From the NCBI GenBank assembly GCA_040880525.1, contig JBBDIG010000038.1, positions 1-57,474 on the forward strand: a stretch of 57,474 nucleotides of DNA, read 5' to 3'. The position numbers and the translations under genes were made by a program. Origin of the DNA: Bacteroidia bacterium. Lineage in GTDB: Bacteria; Bacteroidota; Bacteroidia; CAILMK01; JBBDIG01. Each line of letters opens with the position of its first letter. Position 1 is the stretch's first letter. Under the pieces are notes generated by a model. The model had not been told where the DNA came from, made no database searches, and saw only the letters and a list, made by a program, of their open reading frames with translations. Shown piece after piece: positions 30,680 to 34,299 of the stretch.

Positions 30680-31129
30680 ATGATACAAACAGTCATTCAC
30701 ATATTTTTAGCACTCCTGATTTTCCTGTCAACCACAGGTGTGGCGGTTATACGCCATTTCTGCCATGACCATCTCAGGACGGTATCCGTAATGGTGGATA
30801 CCGAGGCATGTGAAATGGACAAAACATCAGCGGTGCCCACGTGCCATTCCGGCAAACCGATGAGTTGCTGCGACAAAGCTCAGGATGAACCGCTTCTTAA
30901 AGATCATGATTGCTGCTCCACACAAACCGTTTTTCTTAAACTCCCTGAAGAATTTCAGCTTCAAAAAAGCAATGAAATGCAGGTGCCCGGAGCCGCACTT
31001 TTCAGCCTGCCGGTATTTGTGAGTACTGTTGGCTTCACTGCTGATTTGCATTCACATCTTGCCACATTAATTCATTCCCCACCTCTTTTTACTGATATCC
31101 CGGTTCTTACGGGATCCTTTCTTTTATAG
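30680..31129 (+). CDS. HYC_CC_PP-family small envelope protein (putative metal handling)
   Basis: 149 residues. A hydrophobic N-terminus (IQTVIHIFLALLIFLSTTGVAV) leads into RHFCHDHL, then a Cys/His-rich middle (CEMD, CHSGKPMSCCDK, DHDCCSTQ) and a C-terminal HSPPLF. The order H-x-C, CC, CC, PP is the pattern for which the HYC_CC_PP family is named. In Bacteroidota such genes sit with heavy-metal-associated proteins and TonB receptors, exactly as here. With at least seven Cys and several His outside the membrane it could bind Cu, Zn or another soft metal in the periplasm; that is inference. Confidence 0.8.
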   Translation: MIQTVIHIFLALLIFLSTTGVAVIRHFCHDHLRTVSVMVDTEACEMDKTSAVPTCHSGKPMSCCDKAQDEPLLKDHDCCSTQTVFLKLPEEFQLQKSNEMQVPGAALFSLPVFVSTVGFTADLHSHLATLIHSPPLFTDIPVLTGSFLL

Positions 31130-31232
31130 CATTTAATGATGACCATTACTCAATCTGCACTTGGGTTGAGGATCTCCACGTTGTCCTTAACAGGGACTTC
31201 AAATTTTCGATTCATCATTAAATACTTTAGAA

Positions 31233-31595
31233 ATGAAAAGCATATATCAATTCTTATTTGGCTGCGCAATTTTCGCGTTTAGCCTTTCAGCCTGTAGCGC
31301 CACTAAATCTGGCGGAGGCAAATTCCAACAAGCTCGCTTTGCAGTAAAAGGGATCTGCAAAATGTGTGAAGAGCGAATAGAGGAAGCCGCTCTGGTTCGC
31401 GGAGTGCAAACTGCCGAGTGGAATATCAATACAGATACATTGACCATTCGCTACAATCCCGCGATTATAACGGAAATGGAAATACAGCAAAAGGTAGCTG
31501 ATGCCGGTCATGACACGCAGGACATAAAAGCTTCCAGCGAAAAGTACGAGGAACTTCCTCTTTGCTGCCGTTATCATGAATTAGAAAAACATTGA
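31233..31595 (+). CDS. HMA-domain lipoprotein (metal-binding chaperone)
   Basis: 120 residues. A lipoprotein-like signal has lipobox SLSAC (Cys21). Residues ~32-98 are a heavy-metal-associated domain: FAVKGICKMCEERIEEAA with the metal-binding CxxC, then VQTAEWNINTDTLTIRYNPAIIT and the family's usual AGHDT. The C-terminus carries LPLCCRYHE, a second paired-Cys motif. HMA domains hand over Cu(I) or related ions. Here the protein would face the periplasm on a lipid anchor, between the HYC_CC_PP protein and the TonB receptor. The metal identity is not visible. The stop lies 5 nt before the next start. Confidence 0.88.
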   Translation: MKSIYQFLFGCAIFAFSLSACSATKSGGGKFQQARFAVKGICKMCEERIEEAALVRGVQTAEWNINTDTLTIRYNPAIITEMEIQQKVADAGHDTQDIKASSEKYEELPLCCRYHELEKH

Positions 31596-31600
31596 TAGCG

Positions 31601-33898
31601 ATGACAATATTTAAATATTTCAGAAAGGGCTGTTTGCTCCTCGTGCTGCTTCTCTGGGGAGTCAATGCCCACTCCCAGGAAAAGGTAACCGGCATTGTTC
31701 TCGGCCTCGCGGTAGATGGGACCGAAGAACCATTGCCCGGTGCAAACGTGCATTGGCTAAACACCACGACAGGTACCATTACCGGGACAGATGGAAGCTT
31801 TGGGTTGGAACTGGTTGAGACCACTGATCAATTGGTGATAAGTTACACAGGATATTCTCCCGATACCGTGAAGGCCGTTCCAGGCAAGGAGATGAAAATA
31901 TTGCTGCATCAGGGTCAGCATTTAAAAGCGGCAGAGATTGAGGAAAGCGTAAATGCTACGCGCCTCAGCTATTTCGATGTGCGACAAACGCAGGTAATGT
32001 CAGAACAGGAATTGTTCAAGGCCGCCTGTTGTAATCTCTCAGAAAGTTTTGAGACGAATCCTTCGGTTGACGTTTCATACTCTGATGCTGTGACGGGAAC
32101 CCGGCAGATCCAAATGTTGGGGCTGGCTGGGCCTTATTCACAAGTGATGCAGGAACAAATGCCCGGAGTGCGGGGCCTGCAGCAATACCAGGGAATGTCA
32201 TTCGTACCGGGCTCTTGGATCAGTTCCATCCATGTGGGAAAGGGAACGGGTTCTGTAGTTCACGGATTTGAAAGCATAGCCGGTCAGATCAATGTGGAGT
32301 TGCGGCAACCCTCTGATCCGGACAGGCTCTTCCTCAATGGATATGGAAATCAGGATGGACGGGGTGAATTTAATTTGATTACCACACAAAGGATTTCTCC
32401 TAAAACCGCAACGACAACACTATTGCATGCCAGCGCACGACCTTTTACTATAGATGGCAATAGCGATGGTTTTGCAGATAATCCTACAGGGGAGCAGTTT
32501 AATGCCATCAACCGATGGAAATTTCATGGCAATAAAGGTTGGGAAGGACAATTTGGCGTGCGAGGTTTCTATGACAATAAGATCGCAGGCCAGGTAACCT
32601 TTGATCCTGAGCGGGATGAAGGAACTCTGAATGCCTATGGCGTGGGAATTACTTCCCGGCAGGGCGGCCTTTGGGCCAAAACAGGAAAAGTATTTTCTGC
32701 GAATCCCTTTAAAAGTGTTGGATTTCAGTTTTCCCTAAATCACTTTGACCAGGACGCATATTATGGCCTACGAGAATATACTGCACAGCAGCAAAGTATT
32801 TACGCTAATGTCATTTATCAGAATATTATTTCTTCTTCTGATCACCTCATTCGGGGTGGAGTCAGTTTTATGGGAGATCGTTATGAAGAACAACTGATTT
32901 CTCCCACGCAGGATTCTGTTCAATTTGACCGGAATGAACTCATTCCCGGGGCATTTGCTGAATACACGTGGTCGCGTGATGTACAGACTTCGGTAGTTGC
33001 CGGACTGCGGGCAGATTATCACAACTTGTTCGGCTTGTTCCTGACGCCTCGTTTGCATGCCCGTTATGCTATTACGGAACAGACGGTACTTCGCCTTTCT
33101 GGAGGCAAGGGTTGGCGCGTATCTAATCCGGTTGCAGAGAATCAATCCGTGCTGGCTACCTCCCGTGAACTATATTTTTTGCCATCTAATGAAATGGAAG
33201 CCTGGAATCTGGAGCCGGAAGAAGCCTGGAATGCCGGTATCAGCCTGAGTCGTGATTTCCGGTTCAACTATCAGAATGGTACTGTGGTGCTGGATTATTA
33301 CTACACCTACTTTACCAACCAGGTGATCATGGATTTGGATGCGGATGTACGGAAGGCGATATTTTACAATCTGGATGGGAAAAGTTTCAGCCACAGCCTT
33401 CAGGCGCAGATTGACTATGAACTGGTGAAGAACCTGGACCTGCGGCTTGCCTATCGCTGGCTTGATGTGAAGACAGCATACCGTTGGAACGGCTTGCTGG
33501 ATAAACCATTAATTTCAAACCACCGAGCTTTTGCAAACCTTGCCTATGAAACGAAGAACAGATGGAAGTTTGACTACACGGTAAAATGGGACGGGTCAAA
33601 GCGAATTCCTTCCACAGAAGACAATCCGGCAGCCTATCAGAGAAGCTCTGAGTCGCCTGATTTTTTTACGATGAATGCACAGGTGACTAAGACTTTCAGC
33701 AAAAAATTCGATGCCTATCTTGGTATGGAAAATATCACGAACTTCAGGCAGGAATCACCCATTATTGCGGCTGATCAGCCCTTTAGTCCCTATTTCGACA
33801 GCTCCCTGATTTGGGGACCCGTATTCGGGAGAATGACCTATGTAGGCTTCAGGCTTAGACTTCCCCATCCTGAAATGGCTGATGGCAATAAGCCGTAG
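31601..33898 (+). CDS. TonB-dependent receptor with carboxypeptidase-like domain, paired with the metal module
   Basis: 765 residues from the ATG at 31601; the frame extends to a TTG at 31592 overlapping the previous stop, which I reject. A signal peptide ends at NAHSQ (~25). A carboxypeptidase-regulatory-like domain lies at ~27-105 (VTGIVLGLA, LPGANVHWLNTTTGTITGTDGSF, YTGY). The plug has FKAACCNLSESFETNPSVDV, IQMLGLAGPYSQVM, MPGVRGL, WISSIHVGKGTGSVVHGFESIAGQINVE. A 22-strand barrel ends in an aromatic, Arg-rich strand (TYVGFRLRLP). The CC pair in the plug is notable, given the CC pairs in the two genes before it. It probably moves a metal or metal complex across the outer membrane. Confidence 0.9.
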   Translation: MTIFKYFRKGCLLLVLLLWGVNAHSQEKVTGIVLGLAVDGTEEPLPGANVHWLNTTTGTITGTDGSFGLELVETTDQLVISYTGYSPDTVKAVPGKEMKILLHQGQHLKAAEIEESVNATRLSYFDVRQTQVMSEQELFKAACCNLSESFETNPSVDVSYSDAVTGTRQIQMLGLAGPYSQVMQEQMPGVRGLQQYQGMSFVPGSWISSIHVGKGTGSVVHGFESIAGQINVELRQPSDPDRLFLNGYGNQDGRGEFNLITTQRISPKTATTTLLHASARPFTIDGNSDGFADNPTGEQFNAINRWKFHGNKGWEGQFGVRGFYDNKIAGQVTFDPERDEGTLNAYGVGITSRQGGLWAKTGKVFSANPFKSVGFQFSLNHFDQDAYYGLREYTAQQQSIYANVIYQNIISSSDHLIRGGVSFMGDRYEEQLISPTQDSVQFDRNELIPGAFAEYTWSRDVQTSVVAGLRADYHNLFGLFLTPRLHARYAITEQTVLRLSGGKGWRVSNPVAENQSVLATSRELYFLPSNEMEAWNLEPEEAWNAGISLSRDFRFNYQNGTVVLDYYYTYFTNQVIMDLDADVRKAIFYNLDGKSFSHSLQAQIDYELVKNLDLRLAYRWLDVKTAYRWNGLLDKPLISNHRAFANLAYETKNRWKFDYTVKWDGSKRIPSTEDNPAAYQRSSESPDFFTMNAQVTKTFSKKFDAYLGMENITNFRQESPIIAADQPFSPYFDSSLIWGPVFGRMTYVGFRLRLPHPEMADGNKP

Positions 33899-34065: not shown

Positions 34066-34299
34066 ATGAAAAATTTTGCTAAAGTGCTTATGTGTGCAGC
34101 CGTTTTAAGTTTCGGCCTTTCCTTTACATCTTGTAAAAAGTGTACTAATTGTACTATTCAGGATAGTGATGGCAATATTGTGACTGGTTGGGATGATGCG
34201 GAAGCCTGTGGAAGTAAGGATGAAATTGAAGATTTCGAGGCTAATTGTGAATCCATCAGCACGACTACTGGAGGCGGTTATACCTGCAGCTGCGATTAA
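34066..34299 (+). CDS. Small Cys-rich lipoprotein, unknown function
   Basis: 77 residues. A lipoprotein signal peptide ends in lipobox SFTSC (Cys23), followed at once by KKCTNC (C26, C29). More cysteines follow at AEACGSK, EANCES and the C-terminal TCSCD, giving eight including the lipid anchor, in a 55-residue acidic mature chain. It has its own promoter box and a strong terminator, so it is a monocistronic unit. I do not recognise the family. The cysteines could form disulfides or bind metal; its position after the metal module may be chance. Confidence 0.8.
   Translation: MKNFAKVLMCAAVLSFGLSFTSCKKCTNCTIQDSDGNIVTGWDDAEACGSKDEIEDFEANCESISTTTGGGYTCSCD

Follow-up and report, generated by a model that had tools for sequence, protein, structure and literature searches.

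A putative copper-uptake module of Bacteroidota with a candidate copper-sensing leader open reading frame

Described copper systems and the three-gene locus

In Bordetella, the operon for a TonB-dependent copper receptor is headed by CruR, a short exported DUF2946 protein with CXXC and RAPP motifs at a near-fixed distance, and is marked by a bubble in which C exceeds G (C>G bubble), a long intergenic region and poor structure of the CruR product (PMC9426467). Copper relieves the arrest of CruR, after which transcription is terminated by Rho ahead of the receptor gene (PMC9426467). The arrest at RAPP was later demonstrated in vitro (PMC12992588). In Bordetella pertussis, the operon consists of the genes for CruR (DUF2946), BfrG/CrtA and PepSY_TM (PMC9426467, PMC12914433), and CrtA has no conserved Cys (PMC12914433). 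CutF of Rhodobacter capsulatus, a DUF2946 protein encoded in the order CutF-CutO-CutG, activates a multicopper oxidase by the unmasking of a Shine-Dalgarno site (PMC9973294). OprC of Pseudomonas aeruginosa is a TonB-dependent copper importer with an essential plug Cys, a CxxxM motif in the plug and an HxM motif in the barrel (PMC8610252). A 2025 survey reports leader open reading frames (ORFs) of copper genes with RAPP/RGPP in many lineages, but finds them lacking in Bacteroidota (PMC12992588). Here, three consecutive genes of a Bacteroidia bacterium, which encode a HYC_CC_PP protein, an HMA domain protein and a TonB-dependent receptor, are analysed. They are located in a stretch of 57,474 nucleotides (nt) (contig JBBDIG010000038.1), which is termed the window.

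The HYC_CC_PP gene (30680-31129, + strand) encodes 149 amino acid residues and matches NCBIfam NF047658 with 55.4 bits against a cut-off of 28, and the HMA gene (31233-31595, + strand) encodes 120 residues and matches PF00403 with 31.1 bits against a cut-off of 24.8. The receptor gene (ATG at 31601, stop at 33898, + strand) encodes 765 residues from this ATG, with CarboxypepD_reg, plug and barrel regions. The first two genes are separated by 103 nt, and the HMA stop (31595) and the receptor ATG (31601) by 5 nt. A first-pass annotation, which was made from the sequence alone, is correct in the positions of the three ORFs on the + strand, in this 5-nt spacing and in every Cys motif that it named, which are the CC pairs of HYC_CC_PP, the CxxC and LPLCCRYHE of the HMA protein and the FKAACCNLSES of the receptor. 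It also stated that neither an ATPase, an RND pump nor a regulator lies beside these genes. None of them adjoins the module as a separate gene in the window, but the statement is probably wrong for the regulator, because HYC_CC_PP itself would be the regulator if it acts as a leader ORF.

Together, the three genes make up a genuine metal module, far beyond chance, and we favour the reading that this module takes up copper and is equipped with its own copper-sensing leader ORF. This reading builds on synteny, fusions, conserved residues, fixed spacing, a C>G bubble and copper-gene neighbours; we infer which metal is handled, that it is taken up and transferred, that ribosomes stall and Rho terminates, and in which sense the genes respond. 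According to this proposal, the receptor would import copper through the outer membrane in free or chelated form, with the two adjacent plug Cys residues as a thiolate site in the path. The HMA protein, either periplasmic or fused to the N-terminus of the receptor, would take copper from the plug by its CxxC and C-terminal CC. HYC_CC_PP would act as a regulatory nascent chain and not as a relay partner. When copper is scarce, the ribosome would stall at the C-terminal [P/S/A]PP of HYC_CC_PP and mask a Rho site, and transcription would reach the HMA and receptor genes. When copper binds to the H-x-C, C and CC residues, which would by then be outside the exit tunnel, the stall would be relieved and transcription would end after the HYC_CC_PP gene.

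The Cys-Cys receptor and its HMA partner

A receptor orthologue is present in 223 of the 295 genomes of the class at E <= 1e-40. Of 40 loci picked by receptor homology alone, from ranks lower than the best 30, every one has the plug CC, 36 have an HMA gene adjacent or fused to the receptor gene, and 31 have a HYC_CC_PP gene upstream. A second set of 110 other loci consists of 29 loci from the same homology search, 80 loci from a pattern search and the window. All 110 have the plug CC, a count that is partly selected, since the 80 pattern-search loci were partly selected for the plug CC. The HMA gene is found in 96 of the 97 loci of this set with full flanks (upstream in 54, downstream in 20 and fused in 22), and all three genes are found in 89 of the 97, with the HYC_CC_PP gene upstream of the HMA and receptor genes. 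The first-pass annotation had made its proposal dependent on conservation of the CC residues among homologues and had called for a survey of co-occurrence; the plug CC is conserved in both sets, and the three families occur together. The hosts include Fulvivirga, Winogradskyella, Flavobacterium, Terrimonas, Salibacter and many metagenome bins. The whole module is also present in a bin labelled Ignavibacteriae (L130), which represents either spread outside Bacteroidota or misbinning. The open-access subset of the literature, to which subscription papers and preprints do not belong, yielded neither a published study of this module nor a report of metal binding or transfer by these proteins.

The plug domain of the receptor in the window matches PF07715 with 25.8 bits against a cut-off of 23.9, and CarboxypepD_reg is also matched. 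The codons of the plug Cys-Cys in KAACCNLSESFETNPSVDV are located at 32027-32032 on the + strand. The receptor contains three Cys in 768 residues, from which approximately 0.01 CC pairs are expected by composition, and the plug CC is invariant across 19 aligned orthologues. Distant paralogous receptors, which score below approximately 205 bits, have neither the plug CC nor HMA or HYC_CC_PP neighbours, and five other TonB receptors of this genome have no CC. In a Foldseek search, the model of a fused orthologue matches FepA, BtuB, ZnuD and other TonB-dependent transporters. No OprC model is among the NCBIfam matches of the window proteins. Unlike OprC with its CxxxM, the receptor has an invariant CC in its plug (CCNLSES), where CxxxM is absent, and it has a dedicated HMA partner.

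The HMA protein of the window has a lipobox (LSAC, residues 18-21), CxxC at residues 42-45 and a C-terminal LPLCC with CC at 111-112. Its description as a lipoprotein in the first-pass annotation is apt for this copy but not for the family, because LSAC is present in just 1 of 55 HMA proteins, and most others resemble ordinary secreted periplasmic proteins. C111, C112 and Y114 are 100% conserved in the 55 HMA seeds, but this conservation is circular, because the seeds were chosen by the pattern CxxC...CC.Y. In the independent homology-picked sample, the C-terminal CC is present in 34 of the 36 HMA-bearing loci. Like CopZ and MerP, the protein consists of an HMA domain with CxxC, but it differs from them in being exported, in having the extra C-terminal LPxCCxY tail and in being often fused to the N-terminus of the receptor.

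In the natural fusions, many of which are from Chitinophagaceae and Saprospiraceae, a signal peptide, an HMA domain with CxxC, an LPxCC tail, CarboxypepD_reg, a plug with CC and a barrel follow one another in one open frame; one fusion (L155) has two HMA units. The N-terminus of a TonB receptor faces the periplasm, so that the fused HMA domain should be located at the periplasmic mouth of the plug. These fusions are the best evidence for hand-over of the metal from the receptor directly to the HMA protein, which they make plausible. In the AlphaFold model of one fusion (L061), the HMA domain and the barrel are good, but the region near the plug CC is poor (pLDDT approximately 48-50), and we therefore make no claim on the geometry of CxxC, CC and plug CC.

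The first-pass annotation left both the metal and the direction undecided. Both can be narrowed: copper is indicated by the neighbours, and uptake, the default direction, by the receptor, since TonB-dependent receptors import. A CopA-type ATPase gene follows the HMA gene at one locus (L168), a multicopper oxidase with DUF3347 and HMA-MauE proteins is encoded at another (L074), MbnP with MauG at a third (L081), HMBD proteins adjoin the module at four loci (L107, L112, L115 and L131), and a regulator of the AraC type that carries an HMA-like domain is a further neighbour of this kind (L016). Because these informative neighbours are copper genes, copper uptake is the best reading for the receptor and HMA protein, and import of copper by the CC-plug receptor with the HMA protein as its acceptor appears quite probable from the sequences. 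It is unlikely that the pair handles another soft metal, such as zinc, silver, mercury or cobalt, or serves detoxification and not copper nutrition. The HMA proteins also match MerP/MerTP models, CopA adjoins some loci, RND efflux genes adjoin HYC_CC_PP genes, and genomes with no detected COX1 retain the receptor and a CxxC-bearing HMA protein, all of which are consistent with such a role. However, the informative neighbours are of the copper type, TonB-dependent receptors import, and the CC is missing from both paralogues that were inspected beside DtxR/ZIP-type genes. These two CC-less paralogous receptors adjoin DtxR/MntR-type regulator genes, an assignment that is confirmed by Pfam for L172 and made by eye for L173, as is the ZIP-type transporter at L173. 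They probably belong to a branch of this receptor group that serves manganese, iron or zinc.

COX1 was rejected as a marker of copper need, because it is saturated (detected in 282 of the 295 genomes) and uninformative. In the four COX1-less genomes that were inspected closely, the plug CC and an adjacent CxxC HMA-type gene are kept, but the C-terminal CC of the HMA protein is missing. An AraC regulator with an N-terminal HMA-like domain is encoded beside the module genes at one locus (L016), and a short AraC-type regulator with a similar-looking N-terminus, which has no Pfam HMA match, at another (L169); these regulators are a possible second layer of metal control. At five Flavobacteriaceae-type loci (L133, L136, L138, L142 and L147), the gene for an HMA-MauE membrane protein lies between the HYC_CC_PP and receptor genes, and this protein is a candidate inner-membrane partner. 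Directly downstream of the receptor gene in the window, at 34066-34299, a putative Cys-rich lipoprotein of 77 residues with CKKCTNCTIQ is encoded. Its sole Pfam match, to DUF4087, is sub-threshold, and it has not been seen in the module elsewhere so far.

HYC_CC_PP as a candidate leader ORF

The HYC_CC_PP protein of the window has an N-terminal hydrophobic export or anchor segment (approximately residues 5-24), H26-x-C28, C44, CC at 63-64 and 78-79, and PP at 134-135. It is a member of NF047658, the family name of which lists the same motifs (H-x-C, CC and PP). In an alignment of 64 sequences with 21% mean column identity, H26, C28, C44, C78, C79 and P135 are invariant, and P134 is conserved in more than 90%. 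Both CC pairs noticed in the first-pass annotation are present, but only the pair at 78-79 is invariant, and 63-64 is not a conserved position. The codons of the invariant CC are located at 30911-30916, and those of the C-terminal Pro-Pro, the proposed arrest site, 56 residues later at 31079-31084, both on the + strand. The CC-PP distance is 56.5 +/- 2.0 residues in 104 homologues, for which only CC pairs 40-75 residues before PP were kept; when unfiltered, 94% of 132 homologues have a distance within 52-61. The HxC-CC distance has a standard deviation of 8.7 over just 34 residues. A divergent member (L171), which is missed by the HYC profiles, keeps a CC-PP distance of 54 residues. PP is present in the last 45 residues of 89% of the HYC_CC_PP proteins, as compared with 29% of shuffled tails. 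PP is preceded by P, S or A in 101 of 132 proteins (SPP in the window), and the RAPP/RGPP arrest motif is present in 6 of the 132, as compared with approximately 0.8 expected.

The spacing might simply follow from a small conserved fold, and HYC_CC_PP might be an ordinary structural protein, because compact folds can in general also fix spacing. This is very unlikely. The CC-PP stretch has a median pairwise identity of 16% and no conserved position, and the AlphaFold model consists of a small Cys-bearing beta core and a tail without confident structure (pLDDT approximately 50-60), so that the stretch is predicted to be disordered.

The first-pass annotation suggested a Cys relay from the outer membrane to the periplasm through all three proteins. 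The hand-over from receptor to HMA protein, for which the natural fusions speak, is a plausible part of it. The third link, in which HYC_CC_PP would be a membrane-anchored or periplasmic copper carrier fed by the HMA protein, is rather unlikely. The hydrophobic N-terminus, the invariant H, C, C and CC, the usual position beside the HMA and receptor genes and the small beta core predicted for the Cys region would suit a carrier. However, a carrier requires neither a fixed distance of 56 residues between CC and PP over an unconserved stretch, nor PP, nor a C>G bubble, and some receptor-HMA pairs have no detectable HYC_CC_PP gene. In addition, HYC_CC_PP genes directly precede CusA/CzcA-type RND efflux pump genes at other loci, as would be expected if it is a sensor that serves more than one copper operon, but not if it is a relay dedicated to import. 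Taken together, this analysis gives the proposal that HYC_CC_PP is a copper-sensing leader ORF a better than even chance.

The C>G bubble, which is the proposed Rho loading region, extends from 31031 to 31147 on the + strand, with C at 0.26-0.31 and G at 0.12 in 78-nt windows. From the final part of the HYC_CC_PP gene to the next gene, the excess of C over G is 0.174. It is 0.084 for the remaining gene pairs at these loci (p = 8e-18) and 0.091 when small genes are taken for comparison (p = 2e-11), although the loci are related by descent and the p-values overstate their independence. The excess in the window is 0.23. At codon third positions it is 0.051 in HYC_CC_PP genes and -0.003 in receptor genes (p = 3e-6), and it is weak in the intergenic DNA alone after HYC_CC_PP genes (p = 0.001).

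The intergenic RNA between the HYC_CC_PP and HMA genes (31130-31232, + strand) has a folding energy of -29.8 kcal/mol (z = -4.6), and its inverted arms, 31131-31141 and 31213-31223, end approximately 9 nt before the ATG of the HMA gene. No Rfam match is found in this region, and its identification as a repeat was rejected, because it is present in a single copy in the genome. RNA folding after HYC_CC_PP genes is generally stronger than in controls (mean z -2.1 as compared with -1.0, p = 7e-5). This folding, together with the precedent of CutF (PMC9973294), would allow control in which an RNA stem masks the beginning of the next gene until copper-dependent stalling on HYC_CC_PP opens it. Such control is doubtful, and shielding of the start codon was rejected, because the start region of the following gene shows less pairing than controls do (0.39 as compared with 0.50) and the arms in the window end before the ATG. 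The less paired start speaks against a mask of the CutF type and leaves a Rho mechanism of the CruR type as the better fit. A terminator-like hairpin, consisting of ATCCCG, a loop, CGGGAT and a U-rich tail, is located at 31097-31115 on the + strand in the last codons of the HYC_CC_PP gene, 12 nt after the PP codons. An intrinsic terminator at this site is unconvincing, because such hairpins are found in 10% of the family as compared with 4% (p = 0.065). The last 24 nt of HYC_CC_PP ORFs are generally rich in T (0.43 as compared with 0.27).

Several observations weigh against a copper-uptake module with a leader ORF of the CruR type. The C>G excess is partly due to the amino acids of HYC_CC_PP, and the effects at third positions and in intergenic DNA are smaller. 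PP near the end is absent from 16 of 148 HYC_CC_PP proteins. The first place of this gene in the operon is not certain, because simple ORF calls place another gene of the same strand at less than 100 nt upstream for 29 of 66 HYC_CC_PP genes, with 37 of 66 having a divergent neighbour or a gap of at least 100 nt. HYC_CC_PP has no match to PF11162 of DUF2946/CruR at E <= 10, and none is found in this genome either; its C-terminal motif is mostly [P/S/A]PP instead of RAPP/RGPP. The copper-gene neighbours are occasional and not constant; beyond the three module genes no neighbour is constant, and most flanks consist of lineage-specific housekeeping genes. The module also occurs independently of heme-copper oxidases: of the 13 genomes in which COX1 was not detected, some of them incomplete, 8 carry the receptor. 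The confidence of the model around the plug CC is low.

Relation to CruR and CutF, and implications for Bacteroidota

HYC_CC_PP resembles CruR in being a small exported protein with a Cys metal motif and a C-terminal PP at a fixed spacing, in preceding a TonB-dependent receptor, and in its C>G bubble and poorly structured tail. The metal motif of HYC_CC_PP is H-x-C/C/CC instead of CXXC, and approximately 15 residues follow its PP, as compared with 3 in CruR. The receptor has a conserved CC and an HMA partner, whereas CrtA has no conserved Cys and the CruR operon encodes PepSY_TM. Among the sequence-level features of CruR that could be measured, HYC_CC_PP lacks just detectable homology and the RAPP motif, and it may therefore be said to work like CruR, but not to be a CruR. 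It resembles CutF (PMC9973294) in its structured intergenic RNA and in its proposed role as a nascent exported copper sensor with a Cys motif. CutF has a proline-rich C-terminus and HYC_CC_PP a C-terminal PP; the start of the next gene is not specially masked after HYC_CC_PP.

Small His/Cys ORFs, in which CxxC is followed 49-53 residues later by RGPP or RAPP, are present in other genomes of the class (L217, L221 and L222). One of them (L217) matches DUF2946 with 27.2 bits and precedes a different outer-membrane receptor gene, and the CxxC-PP distance of a true DUF2946 protein in Bacteroidota is 53. True CruR-family leader ORFs thus seem to exist in Bacteroidota as well. The distance of approximately 56 residues in HYC_CC_PP is similar to the 49-53 residues measured here in these DUF2946-like proteins. 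A search for RAPP/RGPP motifs would miss HYC_CC_PP, because it mostly uses [P/S/A]PP.

No paper naming NF047658 or HYC_CC_PP was found in the open-access literature searched. The family has so far been a name without a function, and its reading as a leader ORF, its CC-PP ruler and its C>G bubble are new here. The chances are about even that the HYC_CC_PP family represents Bacteroidota-wide copper-sensing arrest-peptide leaders, with neither RAPP nor detectable homology to CruR/CutF, that control both import genes and CusA-type efflux genes, with the import arm being a new type of copper TonB receptor that passes the metal through a plug Cys-Cys directly to a dedicated, often-fused HMA protein. 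If so, copper sensing by nascent chains would appear to have originated twice, with HYC_CC_PP as the second case. Copper acquisition of Bacteroidota is little described in the open-access literature searched, and the module offers, besides a candidate leader ORF, a candidate for its receptor, which is present in about three quarters of the class.

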